This document shows positions 899 through 34,287 of a stretch of 35,918 nt of DNA, piece after piece. The first letter of the stretch is position 1; every line of letters begins with the position of its first letter. Location of the stretch: NCBI GenBank assembly GCA_949298875.1, contig CASFYI010000077.1, forward strand, positions 1 to 35,918. Direction: 5' to 3'. Source of the stretch: an uncultured Methanomassiliicoccales archaeon (GTDB lineage: Archaea > Thermoplasmatota > Thermoplasmata > Methanomassiliicoccales > Methanomethylophilaceae). A model generated the notes under the pieces. That model worked only from the letters and a program-made list of their open reading frames with translations. It did not search any database and was not told the origin of the DNA. The translations under genes and the position numbers were made by a program.

Positions 899-1468
899 TC
901 GATCCAGGGACTTCACGACTCTCGCTGGCACACCGGCGACGACCGTGTTCGGCGGTACGTCCCTCGTCACCACCGCGCCCGCGGCGACGACGGCGCCGTC
1001 GCTTATCGTGACGTTCCGGAGGATCGTCGCATGGGCGCCGATCCAGACGTTCCTGCCGATGCGTATCGGACCCGGGAACATGTCTTGCCTGTGCGCGGGG
1101 TCCAGGTCGTGGTCGAGGGTGGCCATGACGACCTGCTGGCCGATCAGCGACCCGTCGCCTATCCAGATGCCTCCGTGGTCCTGGAAGCAGCACCCTTCGT
1201 TGATGAACACGTCCTTGCCGATGTGGATGTTCATGCCGAAGTCCGCATGGAACGGAGGGAACATCCTGAAACCCTCTCCCACGGGCTCGCATATCAGCTC
1301 GGACATGATGGAGCGGATCTCGTCCATCGTGTGGTATCTGGTGTTGAGGTCCATCGTGATGCGGCGGGACCTGTCGGCCGCCTCGTTCATGAAGGCGCCG
1401 ACATCCTCGGAGGGGAAGGCCATCCTCCCGCCCTTCGCCATCAGCTCCCTGAACTCCTCCAGCTCCAT
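899..1468 (-). CDS. Maltose/galactoside O-acetyltransferase family, ends at CGA
   Basis: This is a hexapeptide-repeat (left-handed beta-helix) acetyl-CoA O-acetyltransferase of the Maa/LacA/NodL family, expected to acetylate a sugar in the cytosol. The helical N-terminal domain is followed by repeats such as IHIGKDVFIN, IWIGDGSLIG and VWIGAHATIL. The TLDHDLDP segment matches the catalytic His region, and the C-terminal VVAGVPARVVK is the family's closing motif. The protein is expected to stop right after this motif. In frame the next codons are SLD and then CGA at 899-901, giving 189 residues, a normal family length. Under the standard code the frame stays open to 464, over 359 bases of ychF. 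The start is taken as the ATG at 1468 because a T-rich TATA-like element at 1493-1500 lies about 28 bases upstream. An alternative ATG is at 1492. Confidence 0.86.
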
Positions 1469-1503: not shown

Positions 1504-1947
1504 TCGGACAGTCCTCTCCAGACCGAGGAGCGCCATCAGCTTCTCCAAGGTGTCCCTGAGGTCCCTGACCTCGCCCTCGTCGAAGGATTCCCTGATGTTC
1601 CCGAAGGACTCAGCGCCCATGGCGAGGAACATGTCGTGCAGGAGGATCCCGCGGGGGGTTATCTCCAGGACCCTGGCGCGGGCGTCCCTGTCCGATACGG
1701 AGACCTCGACCAGCCCCCTCTCGCGCAGCCTCTCCACGAGGGTCCTGGCCGCCTGGTGTGAGGAGCCGGAATAGGCCCCGAGATCCGCTATCATGCATCC
1801 TGGGTGCTCGCGTATGAACGTGAGCGCATCAGCCTGGGACGATGTCAGCCCCAGGCTGGCGGCATGGGCGTCGCGGCGCCTCGTGACCTCGCGCCCCGCG
1901 ATGCGGAGCATGCGGGCCACCGCCAGGATGTCACTGTCCGCTGGCAC
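1504..1947 (-). CDS. MarR-family transcriptional regulator, ends at CGA
   Basis: This is a winged-helix DNA-binding regulator of about 147 residues. Its core is typical of MarR: an N-terminal dimerisation helix, LTSSQADALTFI, then the recognition region SSHQAARTLVERLRERGLVE and the wing VSVSDRDARARVLEITPRG. The start is a GTG at 1945-1947 with a strong ribosome binding site (GGAGGG) a few bases upstream. It overlaps the end of the upstream membrane-protein gene by 17 bases. A CGA at 1504-1506 falls six codons before the TGA at 1486-1488; by the rule proposed here the protein ends at CGA. The region after it is T-rich and looks like promoter DNA for the next gene. The ligand is unknown; the nearby palindrome at 1473-1491 may be its operator. 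Confidence 0.88.
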
Positions 1948-4696: not shown

Positions 4697-5923
4697 TCGT
4701 GGTTCGTGATAGTCAATCGCCAATACGTCGAGGGCCTCGACGACGCACTGGATCCCTAGCCTCTCAGAGAAGTTGGGGTGAGTGCGGCCGTCGTCCCCGG
4801 ACACGAACTCCTTCACGTACGTGCCGGAGTCGGTCTCGAGTTCGAGGTCGAACCGGTCCCCGTCGAAGGAGTCCGCCGTCACCCAGTGGATCCTCCTCTT
4901 CCTGACCAGGTCGGCCCTTCTGTGCTCGACACGGCGTGGAGTCCTCTGTTCTATATCGGCGTCCTTGAACGATAAGGCGACGTCAACTACTGCCTCTTTA
5001 TTAACTTTGCCGTCTGCTTTAACGCGCACGCGATAGACCTTGTCGGACGCGGCGCCCTTGTACCTCTCGACGGCCTCGCGCTGGACGAAGTGCAGGGAGT
5101 TGAACGCGGCCATGTCGCCGGCGCTGGACCTCCTCTCGAGCTCGTCCAGGTCGATGAACCTCCTCTTGGGCTGGGAGATCTCCAGGACGAAGGGCCTGCC
5201 GTCGCCGAGCATGCGCGCGTCGATGTCCTCGCGGCCCATGCCGTGGAAGAAGTGCTCCCTCCCGTCGGCCATCTCCAGGGCGATGTCCCCGATGATCTCC
5301 TGCACGGAGGTCTCGTACATCTTGCCCTTGCCGTGGCAGTGGGGGCATCCCTTGCCGTGGCACTCCCTGCAGGGCCATATGGTCTGGGGGATCTCGCGGC
5401 TGTACTTGTTGTAGCGGCCGGCGATGAAGAGGGGGGCGATGTCCAGCTTGACCTCGCCGAAGCGGGTGTCCACCAGGGCGACGACCTGGGGGTTCTTGAA
5501 CTCCACCGGGCGGTGGATCATGGGGAGTGCCAGCTTGCCGATCTCGCGGTTGAGCTCGGATTTGATGGCCTCCGGGCTCTGGAGCTGATGCTTCTCCCAC
5601 AGGGCCTTCTCGCGCTCGGCGATCTCGGGTTCGACCTTGGTGCCGACGAGGAAGTTGTCGGACTCGATGGGGTTGACCGCCTCGGCCACGTTCTCGGCGA
5701 AGCGGGGGAGCAGGTCGAAGATGTCCTCGCACAGGGGGCAGGGTGACATCGCGGGAGGGCAGTCGCCCTCCTCCGCGAGCGCCTCGCGGACCATGCGTCC
5801 GCGCTCGTCGTTGGTCATGCCGGTGCCGACCTTGCCGAACATGCGGCCCAGGCACCTGTCGCACAGCCCCTCGGAGGCGAGGGCGCGGGCGGTCTCCAGA
5901 TTCTCGTAGATCCAGTCCTCCAT
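4697..5923 (-). CDS. pus10: tRNA pseudouridine synthase Pus10, ends at CGA
   Basis: Pus10 makes pseudouridine 54 and 55 in the T-loop of archaeal tRNAs. The N-terminal zinc module shows LCDRC and CPLC, followed by a THUMP-like region. A second CxxC pair lies in CRECHGKGCPHC. The catalytic motif REDIDARMLGDGRPFVLEI (about residues 228-246) contains the active-site Asp. The C-terminal part has the expected TYVKEFVSGDDGRTHPN and ends with GIQCVVEALDVLAIDYHEP. CGA at 4697-4699 follows immediately, giving 408 residues, as expected. With CGA as Arg the frame would continue to 4055, across all of L21e and rpoF. The start is the ATG at 5921-5923, with GAGG upstream overlapping the KH gene's TGA. Confidence 0.93.
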
Positions 5924-16611: not shown

Positions 16612-16636
16612 ATGATTAACCATAGAAAACCGATAC
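16612..16636. promoter_or_regulatory. Shared A/T-rich divergent promoter region
   Basis: This short A/T-rich stretch lies between the start codons of two divergent membrane-protein genes. If it is core promoter for both, the plus-strand gene must start at 16645 rather than at the ATG at 16612. Confidence 0.4.
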
Positions 16637-16644
16637 CATCGGAT

Positions 16645-17205
16645 ATGCCCAGATTCCGGGAGGATTCGAGCTGGTCACTGTCCAGGGTGGCGGGGGAGCT
16701 CTTCCACAGGGGAGCGCGTCCGTTCGTCCTCAAGGTGGCGCAGACTTTCCTCGTGATCATCGTCGCCATCTACCTGACCAAGCTGGCCGTCCTTGCCATG
16801 GGCATGAACGAGGGATACGGATACCAGTTCGTGTCGATCGCCACGTTCCTGGTGGACATGGCGATGATGCTCGTGACGATGGATTCTCTGCTCGCCGTGT
16901 CGTCCCGTAGGCCGAAGGCCTGGAAGAAGGCGGTCCGTGCCGCGATGCTCCTGGTGATCTTCAATCTGATCGCCTGGTACGGGAACGATCCGCTCTCGGC
17001 CTCGTCGCTGGTCGTCATGAATCCATTCCTGGTGACGCCCTTCGCGTTGGCTGTCATAGCCGTGATGTTCTGGGCGCCCATACGCAGGTTCTACATGCCC
17101 ATGATGGAGGAAGAGTTGTCCCTGTGGAGCTGGTTCAAGTACGCCTGGTTCTCGCCGCTGTACACCTCGTCGGAGTACAGGGTGATGTACGACGACAGGG
17201 AGCGA
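16645..17205 (+). CDS. Unidentified membrane protein, ends at CGA
   Basis: No family is recognised. The protein has about 186 residues and four likely membrane segments (FLVIIVAIYLTKLAVLAMG; FLVDMAMMLVTMDSLLAV; AMLLVIFNLIAWYG; FLVTPFALAVIAVMFWAP). The C-terminal cytosolic tail is SWFKYAWFSPLYTSSEYRVMYDDRE. It ends at CGA (17203-17205), directly abutting the CGA end of nop10 on the other strand; in the standard code it would run five codons further to TGA at 17221. The ATG at 16645 is preferred over 16612 because the A/T-rich shared promoter region (16612-16636) would otherwise be coding. Confidence 0.72.
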
Positions 17206-17376
17206 TCGCTCCCTCTTCCATGAATCGACGACCTGCTGGCGGCGGTACCTGCCGAGACGGTCGTCCGGAGAATACTTGGGTGGGATGGGGCAGGAGGTGG
17301 CCGCCCCGCATGCGGGGCAGACCGCCTCAAGAGAATAGCGCCCGCAGGATGCGCAGCGCCTCATGCGGGAGCTCAT
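17206..17376 (-). CDS. nop10: H/ACA RNP protein Nop10, ends at CGA
   Basis: Nop10 is a small zinc-binding partner of Cbf5 in archaeal H/ACA RNPs that guide pseudouridylation. MRRCASCGRYSLEAVCPACG provides four Cys for zinc, followed by PIPPKYSPDDRLGRYRR, the diagnostic linker. CGA at 17206-17208 gives 56 residues, the normal length. With the standard code the frame would stay open to 16675, all antisense to the membrane-protein gene. The ATG at 17374-17376 overlaps the aIF2-alpha TGA as ATGA; an internal ATG at 17364 is the alternative. The aIF2-alpha/Nop10 pairing is conserved in Archaea. Confidence 0.93.
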
Positions 17377-20180: not shown

Positions 20181-22368
20181 AGCCCCTGAGCCTCATGGCG
20201 TTCGTGACGACGGATATCGAGGACAGCGACATGGCCGCCGCCGATATCATCGGCATCTGATCGACGAGTCCGTCGTAGCCGAGGAGCACCGGGAGGCCGG
20301 CGGCTATCGGGATGCAAACCGCGTTGTAGCAGAACGCGAAGAACAGGTTCTGCTTGATGTTGCGAAGCGTGGCGCAGCCGATCTCCAGTGAGGCCGGCAC
20401 GCTGCGGAGGTCGTCGTTCATCATTATGACGTCCGCGGATTCCATGGCGATGTCCGTCCCGGAGCCTACGGCGATGCCAAGGTCCGACTGGGTGAGCGCC
20501 GGCGCGTCGTTGATCCCGTCGCCGGTCATGGCGACCCTGCGCTGGGCGACCTGGAGCTCCTTGACTATCTCCAGCTTGTCGCCCGGCTTCGTCTCCGCCC
20601 TAACATCGTCGATGCCCAGCTCGCTGGCGATGTGCTCGGCGGTGCTCCTGCGGTCCCCGGTGACCATCATCACGCGGATGCCGTCGGCCCTGAGCGCGGC
20701 CACGGCGGAGGGGCTCTCCTCCCTGACGGGGTCCATGATCGAGATGGTCCCGCGGTACTCCCCGTCGATCGCCGCGAGGATGCAGGTGCGCCCCTCGGAT
20801 GCGCCGGCGTCCGCGCCTTCGGGGATGTCTATGCCCTCATCGGAGAGGAAGGACGCGCTTCCGACGACGATCCTGGAACCGTCCACGGTGCATCTGACCC
20901 CGCCTCCGGTGACGCTCTCGAACTCGGCGTGATCCGGCACCGCGATGTCCTCGGATGCGGCATATGCCACCACGGCCTCGCCGAGCGGATGCTCCGAGTC
21001 CGTCTCCGCTGCGGCGACGATGGACACGAACCTCTCCGTATCCATGGATGTGATGACGTCCACGACTTCCGGGCGGCCGACGGTGCAGGTGCCCGTCTTG
21101 TCCAGGACGACGGTGTCGATCCTGGCGGCGGATTCCAGAGCGGCCGCCGTCTTGTAGAGGATACCATGCTTGGAACCCAGCCCTGTGCCTACGACTATGG
21201 CCAGCGGCGTGGCCAGGCCGAGGGCGCACGGGCACGAGATGACGAGGACGGACACGGCGATCGTGAGCGCGAACTCGGAGTCCCTGCCGGCCAGCAGCCA
21301 GCCGATGCACGCGAGGACGGCTATGACGATCACCGCCGGCACGAACACGGCCGCCACGCGGTCGGCGATGTTGGCCACGGGGGCCTTGGTCCCCTGGGCC
21401 ATCTCCATCATGCGGGCTATCTGGAACAGGACGGTGTCCTCGCCGACCTTCTCCACCTTCGCCCTCAGGCTTCCGGATCCGTTCACGGTCGCTCCGTAGA
21501 CGACGTCGCCGGGGCCCTTGGTCACGGGGATGCTCTCTCCCGTGAGCATGGATTCGTTGACGGACGACTGTCCCTCGATGACGGTGGCGTCGGTCGGCAC
21601 CCTCTCCCCGGGCCTGATCAGGATGATGTCGCCCATCGCGAGTTCGGACGACGGTATCCTGGACTCGGCCCCGTCGCGGATGACGGTGGCCTCGTCGGGG
21701 GCCATCTCCAGGAGCTTCCTCAGCGAGTCGTTGGTCCTGTACTTGGAGCGGGCCTCCAGATACTTCCCGATGCTGACCAGCGCCAGGATCATGCCCGCCG
21801 AGTCGAAGCTCAGCGAGTGCACCGCCGACGCATCCCCGCTCCAGACCTCGTAGGTGGACCAGAGCCCCATCAGCACGGACGCCGTGCATCCGAGCGATAC
21901 GAGCGAGTCCATCGTGGGGCTCTTGGAGAGGAGCGCCGGGTATCCCTTCCTGAAGAAGCGCCTGCCGGCGTAGAGGATCGGTATCAGAAGGACGATCTGC
22001 AGTGCGCACAGGGCCAGAGGCTCAAGCCCTATGTCCAGGCCGAACATGTGGCCCATGGCCACCACGCTCAGCGGGATGGCGAACGCTATCGCCAGGATCA
22101 GGTCGCGCCTGCGTACCGCCAAGTCCCTAAGTTCCGCCCTGTCGGCTTCGGCACGGTCGTCGCTGATGACCTGGTAGCCGGCCCCGACTATCGCCTGCGC
22201 GATCCTGTCCTCCGTGACGGCGGAGTCGTCGTAGACCACGGTGGCCGTGTTGTTGCCTATGTTGGCGTTGCACGACTGGACGCCGTCGAGCGCCTCCACC
22301 GCCGTATTGATGCGGTTGGCGCAGGCGGCGCATGTCATGCCGCCCACGCGGAATATGCGGGTCCTCAT
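20143..22368 (-). CDS. copA: Copper-transporting P1B-type ATPase
   Basis: This Cu(+) exporter has 741 residues. It has an N-terminal heavy-metal domain with MTCAAC, eight expected membrane helices, the TGES actuator motif (LTGESIPV), the intramembrane metal site [14 protein letters not shown], the phosphorylation site DKTGT, the nucleotide-domain SEHPLGEAV, and the hinge [16 protein letters not shown]. All catalytic residues are present. The ATG at 22366-22368 overlaps the copZ end: the sequence CGATGA contains the copZ CGA, the copA ATG and a TGA. No CGA occurs inside the 742 codons. It ends at TGA. Confidence 0.96.
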
Positions 22369-22586
22369 CGGAAGAGCCCATGCTTCACGGTTCCGCGGAA
22401 GCCCGCGTCGACGACCGCCTTGATCAGTGCCTCGTCGGCCACGCCGTCCTGCTGGACGACCGCCGTGCCCTTCTTGAGGTTGACATCGACGCTCTTGACG
22501 CCGGGTACCTTCTCGAGAGACTCCCTGACGCTCTTCACGCAGCCCTCGCACATCATTCCCTCGATCTTGATCGTTGTCTTGGCCAT
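22368..22586 (-). CDS. copZ: CopZ-type copper chaperone, ends at CGA then TGA
   Basis: This is a single heavy-metal-associated domain of 72 residues with the Cu-binding site MMCEGC near the N-terminus and a normal ferredoxin-like pattern ([15 protein letters not shown]). It delivers Cu(+) to CopA. The last codons are CTC TTC CGA TGA. I take CGA (22368-22370) as the stop, backed up at once by TGA; the CGA overlaps the copA ATG by one base. The ATG at 22584-22586 is 55-65 bases downstream of a TATA-like TTTAAGATATCC (22640-22651). Confidence 0.93.
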
Positions 22587-22828: not shown

Positions 22829-23218
22829 ATGAGTATGGACGAGGAGGAGGGCATGGCCGAATGCCCGGTGAGGGTGACCGTGAAGCTCATCGGGGGCAAG
22901 TACAAGTCCGTGATACTCTGGAACCTGAGGCTGGGGACGAAGAGGTTCAGTGAGATCCAGGCCCTGGTGCCGGAGGCCACAGGGAAGATGATAACGAAGC
23001 AGCTCAGGGAGCTGGAGGCGGACGGTCTGATCAGCCGCCGCGTCTATCCGGTGGTCCCTCCGAAGACAGAATACTCGCTGACGGAGCTGGGGCTGTCGCT
23101 GATGCCCGTCATCGAGCACATGTGCTCATGGGGCATATCGTACATGGACGCACACGGTATGGCCGTGGCCGATTGTGCCAGGGAGCGTCTGACCTCAGGC
23201 GCTGCTCGCGAACTCCGA
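22829..23218 (+). CDS. HxlR-family regulator with N-terminal Cys, ends at CGA
   Basis: This winged-helix regulator (129 residues) has AECPVRVTVKLIGGKYKSVILWNL at the N-terminus, where the Cys matches the redox-sensing position of HypR/HxlR members. It is followed by KRFSEIQALVPEATGKMITKQLRELEADGLISR (recognition helix) and PPKTEYSLTELG (wing). An in-frame CGA at 23216-23218 overlaps the nitroreductase 3' end by 24 bases; TGA would come nine codons later. The start ATG at 22829 is directly behind the dyad 22808-22826. The divergent copZ-copA and convergent nitroreductase genes are possible targets. Confidence 0.88.
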
Positions 23219-23771: not shown

Positions 23772-24110
23772 ATGGACCCGATACCCGAGGGGGAGACCCC
23801 GTTTGCCACGACGATAAGGCTCCTCGGCGGCAAGCACAAGATCCTCGTCCTATGGATGCTGTCCTCCCACGGGCGGATGCGCTTCAACGAGCTCAAGCGG
23901 TTCACAGGGGAGGGGTCGTCGCGCATGCTCTCGATCACCCTGAGGGAGCTGGAGTCCGACGGCCTGATCAGCCGCACCGTGGTGTGCGATTCGCCCCAGC
24001 GTGTCGAATACTCTCTGACGAGCGTCGGCATGTCCGTCCTCCCGGTCCTGGAGGAGCTGGACCTCTGGGGCGCCGCCTATCAGGACATGGTCCGCTCGCG
24101 CCTGGTGCGA
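23772..24110 (+). CDS. HxlR-family regulator lacking the N-terminal Cys, ends at CGA
   Basis: This second HxlR protein has 112 residues. TTIRLLGGKHKILVLWMLSSHGRMRFNELKRFTGEGSSRMLSITLRELESDGLISRTVV carries the helix-turn-helix and QRVEYSLTSVG the wing. The sensor Cys of HxlR1 is replaced by Pro-Phe, so it probably responds differently. The domain ends with WGAAYQDMVRSRLV and CGA at 24108-24110, the expected length. In the standard code the frame would stay open for about 660 more codons, to 26096, antisense to the phosphatase gene. It is divergent from the nitroreductase gene. Confidence 0.9.
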
Positions 24111-31975: not shown

Positions 31976-32362
31976 ATGATAGAAGCAGGCATCAGAGGGA
32001 CGAGGACCGTCTCCGTCACCCCCGAGAACACCGCCGAGGCCGTCGGCTCCGGCACACTCCCGGTCTTCGCCACCCCGGCCATGATCGCCCTCATCGAGGC
32101 CACCGCGAGCAACAGCGTCGCTCCGCACCTCGAGCCCGGGACCAGCACCGTCGGCACCCACCTGGACGTAGCCCACTCCGCGGCCACGCCGGTCGGCATG
32201 GACGTCACCTGCGAGACTGAGCTCGTCGAGGTGGACCGCAGGAGGCTCGTCTTCAGGGTCGTCGTCAGGGACGCCAAGGGCGAGATCGGCTCCGGCACCC
32301 ACGAGCGCTTCGTGGTCGACGACGCCAAGTTCATGTCCAAGGCGAGGTCGAAGCTCGAGCGA
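31976..32362 (+). CDS. FlK-like hotdog-fold thioesterase, ends at CGA
   Basis: This hotdog-fold protein has 128 residues. GSGTLPVFATPAMIALIEATASNSVAPHLEPGTSTVGTHLDVAHSAATPVGMDVTCETELVEV matches the fluoroacetyl-CoA thioesterase-like (FlK) family: the catalytic Thr, Glu and His are visible in FATPAMIALIE and AHSAATPVG. These enzymes hydrolyse small acyl-CoAs. The protein ends FMSKARSKLE followed by CGA (32360-32362), the usual length. In the standard code it would run to 32914. It meets the TctA-like gene tail to tail with no space. Confidence 0.9.
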
Positions 32363-33631
32363 TCGGGAGAGACCCAGCTTGAATGCGAGTACCGGGAGTA
32401 TCAGGCTTCCGCAGAGGATGACCCTCCCGGTGCCGCACATCCCGGGCAGCAGCCCGACGGCCGTGGCCGAGGCGAGCACCAGCAGGCTCGCCGGGCCGTT
32501 CAGGACGAACGTCAGCGCCGTAAGGAGAGCCAGCATCGCCCTGCTGAGCCTCAGCGGGTCGATCCTGCCCACGGCGCGGGACAGAAGTTTTCCGCTGGCT
32601 ATGGTGAGCCAGTATCCCGCGAGCGATGCCACCGCAGCGGACAGCAGCAGCATCAGGAACGGACCCGAGGCGAACCCGCCGAGGGACCTCTCCAATATGT
32701 CACCGATGACCAGGGCGGTCCCGGACCTGCCGTTCCCCGAGACGGACAGGGTGACAAGTGCCAGCACCGACGTGACGGTTCCTATCGAGGCCACCGTGGA
32801 GATGAATCTGGCGGGATCCCTCTCGGGTTGCACGGCGGCGGACATCGAAGCCCCGACGGTGGACGTGATCCCGGGGAACCATCCGGCGACGGTCCCCATC
32901 AGGACGCCGCGTAGCCCCGGGCGCACCCCCACGGGATCCGAGACGAGGTCCTTCTGCGGAGGTATCCCGGATGCCCTGCCGGTCTCCAGCAGCACGGGCA
33001 CCCCGAACAGCCCGGTTAGGAGAGGCATCATGACGCTCCCCTCCCCAAGCACGCCGTCCATGGGTATCGGCAGCACCATGCAGCCCAGCCCGAGGACTCC
33101 GGAGAGGAGCATCAGGGCGGGGCCCCACAGGCCGCTCCCCCTGTGCCATTCGGACGAGAGAAGGACCGCGCATGCCAGGATCAGCACGGCGGGCGTCAGG
33201 CGGTCCAGGAAGTCCTCCGCGCCATGCAGGAGGGCCCATTGGAGGGGCAGTGCCAGCAGCAGCGAGGCGGAGCATCCGACCAGGCTTCCGACGGCCGCCG
33301 CGCGGACGGCCTCCATGCCCCTCCCGGCGAGGAGCAGGCGGTGTCCGGGGAGCACCGAGACGGCGTCCTCCGCATCCGGCGCCCCTATGAAGACCGAGGG
33401 CACGAAGTCCACGAAGGAATGGACCACGGAGGCCGCCATCACGCAGCATCCCACGGCGACGGCCGCCTCCGTCTCCCCCAGCGGCAGCGCGGTCTCCAGA
33501 GCGGGATACGCCGCCAGCAGCATCGCCGCCAGCGTGTTGACGTGAATCCCGGGGACGAGGCCGCTGAACAGTCCGAGAGCGCATCCGACCGCGGACATCG
33601 CGAGGCATAGCGCCAGCAGGGAGGGGTCCAT
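32363..33631 (-). CDS. TctA/DUF112-type archaeal membrane protein, ends at CGA
   Basis: This polytopic membrane protein of 422 residues has about 10-12 hydrophobic segments. It opens with GLFSGLVPGIHVNTLAAML, the TctA-like motif G-x-x-P-G-x-x, and a second such motif is GTVAGWFPGITSTVGASMS. The archaeal TctA-like family is presumed to transport a small organic acid, partner unknown. The end is GRVILCGSLILPVLAFKLGLS followed by CGA (32363-32365), the expected place. In the standard code it would add 165 residues, to 31868. The ATG at 33629-33631 has GAGAGG upstream. A TATA-like element is near 33650-33660. Confidence 0.88.
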
Positions 33632-33708: not shown

Positions 33709-34287
33709 TCGCTCCCTCACGACGGGCCTCCCGTCCTCGACTCCCACTCTCAGAAGCGCCCTGATGGGTACTCCGAGCTCGGCCGACAGGGCGTCCCTGT
33801 CGGGATTGCGGTCGAAGACGGCCACGATCTCGGTGACGACAATCCCCGCCCCGCGGAGCGCATCCACCGTGGCTCTCGCCGTCCCTCCGGTGTCCAGGAC
33901 GTCGTCCACGATCGCCACCCTCTCGCCCGGCCTCAGTGTCGAGACGTGCATCATCGACTCGGAGTACCCGGTGCGCTTCCCGAACGAGATCTCGCCGGGG
34001 AGCCCATACGGCCGTTTGCGTATCGCCAGATACGGGATGCCGGTCCTCAGCGTGATCCCGGCGGCTATCGGCAGGGCCATGGCCTCCGGGGCGAGGATCA
34101 CGTCGCAGTCCAGCTCCGCGACCTCCAGGATCCCGGACACCGCCTCGTCCAGCAGCTCCCTGTCCACGCGCGGGAGGCCGTCGGAGAGCGGGTTGACGAA
34201 GTATTCGTAGCCGCCGCGGTCGACGGACGGCCCCTCCAGGAAGCTCTCCCTGAGTCTGCGAAGCTCCATGTCCTCCCGTATCGACAT
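33709..34287 (-). CDS. gfcR: GfcR-like phosphoribosyltransferase regulator, ends at tandem CGA
   Basis: This phosphoribosyltransferase-fold protein has 192 residues. The PRPP motif VAIVDDVLDTGGTARATV (about residues 117-134) is intact; DVILAPEAMALPIAAGITLRTGIPYLAIRKR fits the PyrE-like family. In Haloarchaea the related GfcR controls sugar metabolism, but an enzymatic PRTase role cannot be ruled out. The last codons GRPVVRE are followed by CGA CGA (33711-33706), a tandem stop. The standard frame would continue to 33439, into the TctA gene. The start at 34287 or ATG 34269; the TATA region at 34292-34300 favours 34269. Confidence 0.85.

Follow-up and report, generated by a model that had tools for sequence, protein, structure and literature searches.

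To our knowledge, a sense codon has become a stop codon only in mitochondria, and the code changes described in cellular genomes either give a stop codon a sense meaning or exchange one amino acid for another. The sense-to-stop cases in Table 1 of PMC4695839 are mitochondrial UCA in Scenedesmus obliquus and AGA/AGG in vertebrates, with no nuclear case. Codetta revealed bacteria in which the arginine codons AGG, CGA and CGG are reassigned to methionine, tryptophan or glutamine; its authors state that the method cannot detect new stop codons, and they list no sense codon of an archaeon as having changed its amino acid (PMC8629427). A stop read by a release factor can also sit in frame within that factor's own gene, as it does, in conserved form, in RF2 (prfB; PMC12421855). 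Here we analyse a 35,918-nucleotide stretch (the window; contig CASFYI010000077.1) of a PylS-positive Methanomethylophilaceae archaeon (Methanomassiliicoccales), in which two convergent genes appear to end back to back on CGA at positions 32360–32365. In the literature searched, which left out preprints and most subscription papers, we found no report of a CGA stop in archaea or Methanomassiliicoccales, only papers on plant mitochondria. The reading we favour, at a probability of about 0.85, is that CGA has been largely stripped of its arginine meaning and serves as a leaky fourth stop recognised by the archaeal release factor aRF1, which would tune its own synthesis at an internal CGA much as RF2 does.

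The initial annotation had pointed to the hexamer CGATCG at 32360–32365 and again at 17203–17208, and at both places it is indeed formed by the abutting ends of two convergent genes. The first junction comprises the following features.

31976..32362, plus strand: FlK/4HBT thioesterase gene, 128 residues if CGA is a stop (Pfam FlK, E = 2.8e-39)
32360..32362, plus strand: CGA stop of the thioesterase, 12 residues downstream of the end of the Pfam FlK match
32363..33631, minus strand: TctA-family gene, 422 residues if CGA is a stop (PF01970, E = 6.6e-46)
32363..32365, minus strand: CGA stop of the TctA-family gene, with profile positions 1–419 of 423 matched, up to residue 404 of 422

Under the standard code the thioesterase frame would have 312 residues (to 32914) and the TctA frame 587 (to 31868), each running through the other, and the sequence past either CGA is the antisense of the neighbouring gene. 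Ending at CGA gives the lengths of 128 and 422 residues proposed earlier, and the Pfam matches end shortly before CGA in both proteins. Orthologues were taken from relatives found by an aRF1 search, namely Methanomethylophilaceae metagenome-assembled genomes (MAGs), several of them from rumen or gut, and Methanomassiliicoccaceae archaeon COG_1 (G013). Thioesterase orthologues stop at the same residue with TGA in G001 (99% identity), G002 and G008, with TAA in G035 and with CGA in G003, G007 and G024, and TctA orthologues terminate within a few residues of the end seen here by TGA, TAA or CGA. The alignment thus reveals no conserved extension of either protein, the observation that could have overturned the initial annotation. 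(Two TctA orthologues, L252 in G027 and L262 in G026, carry one in-frame TGA inside the match, which could be sequence error or recoding.) The junction itself forms a series, TGATCA in G012, a relative in which CGA encodes arginine, CGATCA in G001 and G002, and CGATCG in the genome studied and in G003, G007 and G024, and as aligned this series is a TGA-to-CGA exchange at fixed stop positions.

Two such pairs had been thought hard to explain by chance if CGA is arginine. The window contains 13 copies of CGATCG and the whole genome 502, compared with 17 genomic copies of the reversed control GCTAGC, so that the mere presence of the hexamer proves nothing; what exceeds chance is the loss of coding after an in-frame CGA. 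Stop pairs alone do not account for the 502 copies. Two further exactly abutting CGA/CGA pairs lie at L043:3567 and L043:14131.

Loss of coding was measured with codon scores trained on CGA-free stretches, CGA and the stops being scored as neutral. Codons were taken where the frame scoring best among all six was coding over the 30 codons upstream, and the same frame was then scored downstream, at first over 381 kb and then over 681 kb, half of the assembly. In the 381-kb set the frame was still coding after 6 of 87 CGA, 18 of 246 TGA, 1 of 5 TAA and 4 of 5 TAG codons, compared with 50–94% for sense codons (CGG 73%, CGT 80%, AGA 81%, AGG 90% and CGC 91%); the frame thus ceases to code after 93% of in-frame CGAs, as it does after TGA. 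The 681-kb set gave 10/157 for CGA and 36/473 for TGA, with the other arginine codons at 76–92%. The same test applied to pooled outgroup loci found coding still in progress after 57 of 63 CGAs; the test does not itself create the effect. A genome scan, as the initial annotation had proposed, assigned CGA to 101 of 381 called gene ends (about 26%), beside 267 TGA (70%), 10 TAA and 3 TAG, and no coding signal follows the CGA ends. With orthologues ending at the same codon in TGA or TAA, these results support the proposal that CGA is a stop codon.

Were CGA ordinary arginine, with TGA stops lost by mutation and C-terminal extensions tolerated, some 100 genes in the 381-kb set would have extensions that are not conserved and are no shorter or longer than random frames, with a mean of 81 codons, many of them antisense to a neighbour. 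Extensions past CGA are as long as those past TGA (median 20 versus 30 codons, p = 0.32), and hence selection has not favoured nearby back-up stops. CGA is the commonest trinucleotide in the window and is nonetheless missing at genic arginine positions, and TGA and CGA interchange at the same codon between related species. That a tRNA-Arg(UCG) is encoded, and that some internal CGAs align with conserved arginine, is what an ordinary arginine codon would predict; on the whole record we find this explanation scarcely credible.

Comparison across relatives extends the pattern beyond one genome. In pooled tests CGA is a major stop, at 21–38% of ends, in G000 (the genome studied), G001, G003, G004, G007 and G013 (COG_1). 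It is nearly absent from G002, G005, G006, G008, G025, G026, G034, G035 and others, whereas G012 and relatives further away use it as sense. The genomes with high CGA-stop use occupy three places on the aRF1 tree and were produced by different projects, so that an artefact of assembly is an unlikely cause; at least three separate lineages show stop-like CGA, and the outgroups read it as sense. Among CGA-ended genes of the genome studied that have a relative, 23 of 32 possess an orthologue with a TGA, TAA or TAG stop no more than three codons away, and conversely, of 105 genes that end in TGA, 15 have an orthologue closed by CGA. Within five codons of the CGA stops, orthologues end with TGA (100), TAA (11), TAG (4) or CGA (51). 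Aligned arginine codons in 15 clade relatives are CGA in only 13 of 7,336 cases, and on inspection all 13 fall in non-homologous N-terminal tails. As far as sequence comparison can tell, CGA is a sense codon turned stop, purged from homologous genic positions and standing where orthologues have their stops. By the same comparison it stands at gene ends, where it trades places with TGA, and is purged inside genes save for rare, mostly conserved sites.

In plant mitochondria CGA is edited to a stop codon, and C-to-U editing of mRNA, as in plant organelles, could likewise turn CGA into UGA here and leave aRF1 to read plain UGA. Terminal CGAs do have a weak context bias: U tends to follow and A seldom precedes. 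In six genomes U occupies the +4 position after 115 of 226 terminal CGAs (51%), compared with 148 of 559 TGAs (26%; p = 1.4e-10). A site-specific editor would call for a far stronger bias than this, and editing of all CGAs would also hit NCG-ANN codon pairs, which are very common; the conserved CGAs inside genes would need to escape, and the correlated change in tRNA-Arg(UCG) described below would be left without explanation. We therefore consider editing very unlikely. Together with the +4 preference, the absence of U directly after the conserved internal CGAs suggests that sequence context separates strong from leaky CGA stops.

The tRNA that would compete for CGA is altered in this clade. 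All five arginine anticodons, GCG, UCG, CCG, UCU and CCU, are present in the genome. In tRNA-Arg(UCG), positions 31:39 are A:A in the genome studied and in G003, G004, G007, G024 and G032, and C:A in G002, G005, G023, G027 and G035, a mismatch that breaks the last pair of the anticodon stem; outgroups and COG_1 have a paired C31–G39. In the SIG subclade (L342, L343, L344 and L357), C33 replaces the near-universal U33. A pattern search had indicated loss of this tRNA from the SIG clade, which was rejected when a covariance model found the gene with C33. Four-pair anticodon stems can alter codon reading in bacteria (PMC13092985). The 31:39 mismatch may weaken decoding or only tune it; we propose that the mismatch or C33 has left tRNA-Arg(UCG) weakened without being lost. 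The lineage studied and the L059/L060/L067 group are separate on the aRF1 tree, so A31 may have two origins, each alongside high CGA-stop use.

An altered tRNA would equally suit an unassigned CGA at which ribosomes stall until rescue factors (Pelota/ABCE1), rather than aRF1, free them, as would the lack of a signature in aRF1 (below) and the presence of a second eRF1_1-domain protein (L031), taken as Pelota. Stalling at a quarter of gene ends would be very costly, however, a preference for U at +4 is a usual mark of termination by release factors, and the conserved CGA in the aRF1 gene makes sense if aRF1 competes for this codon. Rescue from stalling is in our judgement distinctly unlikely.

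Only four in-frame CGAs lie inside clearly continuing genes in 681 kb, at aRF1 codon 78, in carB, in the ribosomal protein gene L18e and at a GmhA|GmhB junction, and three of these sites (aRF1, L18e and GmhA|GmhB) are conserved. Codon 78 of aRF1 (L035:8329, contig C33) is CGA in all 20 clade-A species and is the gene's sole CGA, whereas most other invariant arginine positions of aRF1 alternate among AGG, CGC, AGA and CGT. In the sister clade B the gene again has a single CGA, at codon 25, in 10 of 10. Codon 78 comes after the NIKS motif and ahead of YxCxxxF and GGQ, so that a working aRF1 requires readthrough of the CGA. In the core of clade A this CGA invariably follows a T (GCT or TCT), even though GCT makes up only 3.5% of alanine codons. 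An in-frame stop within a release-factor gene is thus both present and conserved, as in prfB; the reading frame is continuous across codon 78, with no +1 frameshift. We infer that aRF1 itself reads its internal CGA, and the site would work like RF2 regulation without being a prfB-type member.

CGA could be a stop and yet the internal CGA of aRF1 no more than a retained slow codon or historical remnant, with no feedback. Other internal CGAs do exist, in L18e and carB, and four other arginine codons of aRF1 (AGG or CGT) are clade-invariant too. Against this stand the restriction of the gene to one CGA in 20 species when the codon is purged elsewhere, the recurrence of the feature at another codon in a second clade, and the conserved T that precedes it in the core clade. 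Selection would, moreover, remove premature termination from an essential gene if it were constitutive and of no use. A site without feedback is accordingly unlikely, though the least so of the alternatives considered here.

At the GmhA|GmhB junction (L052:3940), which joins a SIS-domain protein to a HAD phosphatase (families assigned by eye), CGA occurs in 11 genomes, one codon earlier in 2, and TAG takes its place in G005, as predicted for a leaky-stop site; G012, G016 and G023 have AAG or AGA and are constitutive fusions. This junction is a probable case of programmed readthrough. TAG has its own meaning in this genome: PylS is encoded at L053 (C92), and in-frame TAGs occur in continuing genes at L050 (minus strand, 12402), L039:11110 and L033 (minus strand, 487). 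Since TAG is also nearly unused as a stop, it is probably the pyrrolysine codon here. We considered carB as a further programmed site and rejected it, the CGA being private to the genome studied (CGT in G001).

Several observations weigh against a simple conversion of CGA to a stop read by aRF1. Of 19 family genomes, 17 have the internal CGA of L18e (L052:6253, contig C41; IW-CGA-D) and two, G003 and G004, have CGT, so CGA must be readable; this CGA also occurs in four outgroup loci, where CGA is arginine, and may have an older cause. The carB CGA (L042, minus strand, 2231) falls at a conserved arginine and is possibly an unprogrammed sense codon; it may have arisen by recent mutation or by error, or be a leaky site. 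The gene for tRNA-Arg(UCG) persists, and appears intact in COG_1, a strong CGA-stop genome. A residue comparison of aRF1, in which NIKS and YxCxxxF are present, found no residue that separates CGA-stop from CGA-poor genomes. The initial annotation's view of CGA as a stop therefore stands, but not as purely a stop, because a few genic CGAs must be read through and the cognate tRNA gene is present.

A leaky fourth stop could arise and persist as follows. aRF1, the single release factor, would accept CGA besides UGA in the A site, and tRNA-Arg(UCG), the sole tRNA that reads CGA by normal pairing, would be weakened yet kept as a weak competitor. In a GC-rich genome, TGA-to-CGA transitions would spread CGA over gene ends, with U preferred as the next base. 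Gene interiors have been cleared of CGA apart from a handful of conserved sites at which leaky decoding appears to have been retained, the key one being codon 78 of aRF1 (codon 25 in the sister clade). Ample aRF1 would stop translation at the codon-78 CGA; when aRF1 is scarce, tRNA-Arg(UCG) would win and more aRF1 would be made, a negative feedback that would parallel the RF2 (prfB) frameshift but stay in frame. The pyrrolysine code for TAG may, speculatively, have relaxed aRF1 first.

Elsewhere in the window, CGA closes the following genes.

17203..17205, plus strand: CGA stop of a 197-residue membrane-like open reading frame (16612–17205); an orthologue ends at the same residue
17206..17208, minus strand: CGA stop of Nop10 (17376–17206; Pfam Nop10p, PF04135, E = 3.4e-18)
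899..901, minus strand: CGA stop of a hexapeptide acetyltransferase (1492–899; Pfam hexapeptide repeats), whose C-terminus, GVPARVVKSLDR, looks natural
1504..1506, minus strand: CGA stop of a MarR-family regulator (1992–1504)
4697..4699, minus strand: CGA stop of Pus10 (5923–4697; Pus10_C at residues 166–404 of 408, profile 1–232 of 232)
22368..22370, minus strand: CGA stop of an HMA metal-binding protein (22577–22368; HMA profile 1–61 of 62)
23216..23218, plus strand: CGA stop of a winged-helix (HxlR-like) regulator (22829–23218; best-frame call, family by eye)
24096..24098, minus strand: CGA stop of a SpoIIE phosphatase protein (26105–24096; SpoIIE at residues 469–662 of 669, profile 1–191 of 192)
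24108..24110, plus strand: CGA stop of a convergent open reading frame that overlaps the SpoIIE gene end by 15 bases (best-frame gene call)
33709..33711, minus strand: CGA stop of a phosphoribosyltransferase-domain protein (34287–33709)

The membrane-like protein has orthologues that end at the same residue with CGA in G001 (97% identity) and TAA in G002. Nop10 ends at the same residue with CGA in G001 and six codons further on in other relatives, with CGA in G007 and TGA in most others. In Nop10, Pus10, SpoIIE and the HMA protein the Pfam match likewise ends shortly before CGA, and the CGA of the winged-helix regulator falls 24 bases inside a convergent, TGA-ended gene.

Taken together, we judge it likely that this is the first cellular sense-to-stop genome, with a family-wide leaky fourth stop that has grown to 20–38% of sampled gene ends in at least three lineages and with aRF1 controlling its own production, and possibly that of L18e and a bifunctional heptose enzyme, via conserved in-frame CGAs read by the altered tRNA-Arg(UCG). 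The family holds all stages side by side, CGA as arginine, CGA nearly purged and CGA as a major stop, which makes the order of codon depletion, tRNA alteration and release-factor capture directly testable. Wherever CGA is a stop, the deposited gene calls of gut-methanogen MAGs would be wrong at their 3′ ends. An archaeal release-factor feedback loop, if real, would be new.

Among described systems, mitochondrial sense-to-stop changes resemble this one in having a former sense codon at gene ends and perhaps in a compromised cognate tRNA, and differ in affecting organelles with few genes from which the tRNA was lost; here the genome is cellular, the codon is CGA, the altered tRNA persists and the codon is leaky at conserved sites. 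The bacterial cases found by Codetta share the shift in meaning of CGN arginine codons once they are rare. The pyrrolysine code of methanogens has PylS and in-frame TAG in conserved genes in common with this genome, but concerns TAG rather than CGA. RF2 control is bacterial and works through UGA and a +1 frameshift, whereas the archaeal aRF1 site would use CGA and in-frame insertion of an amino acid. In Condylostoma and Blastocrithidia, as here, one codon serves both termination and sense according to position; there a stop became sense, and here sense became stop.
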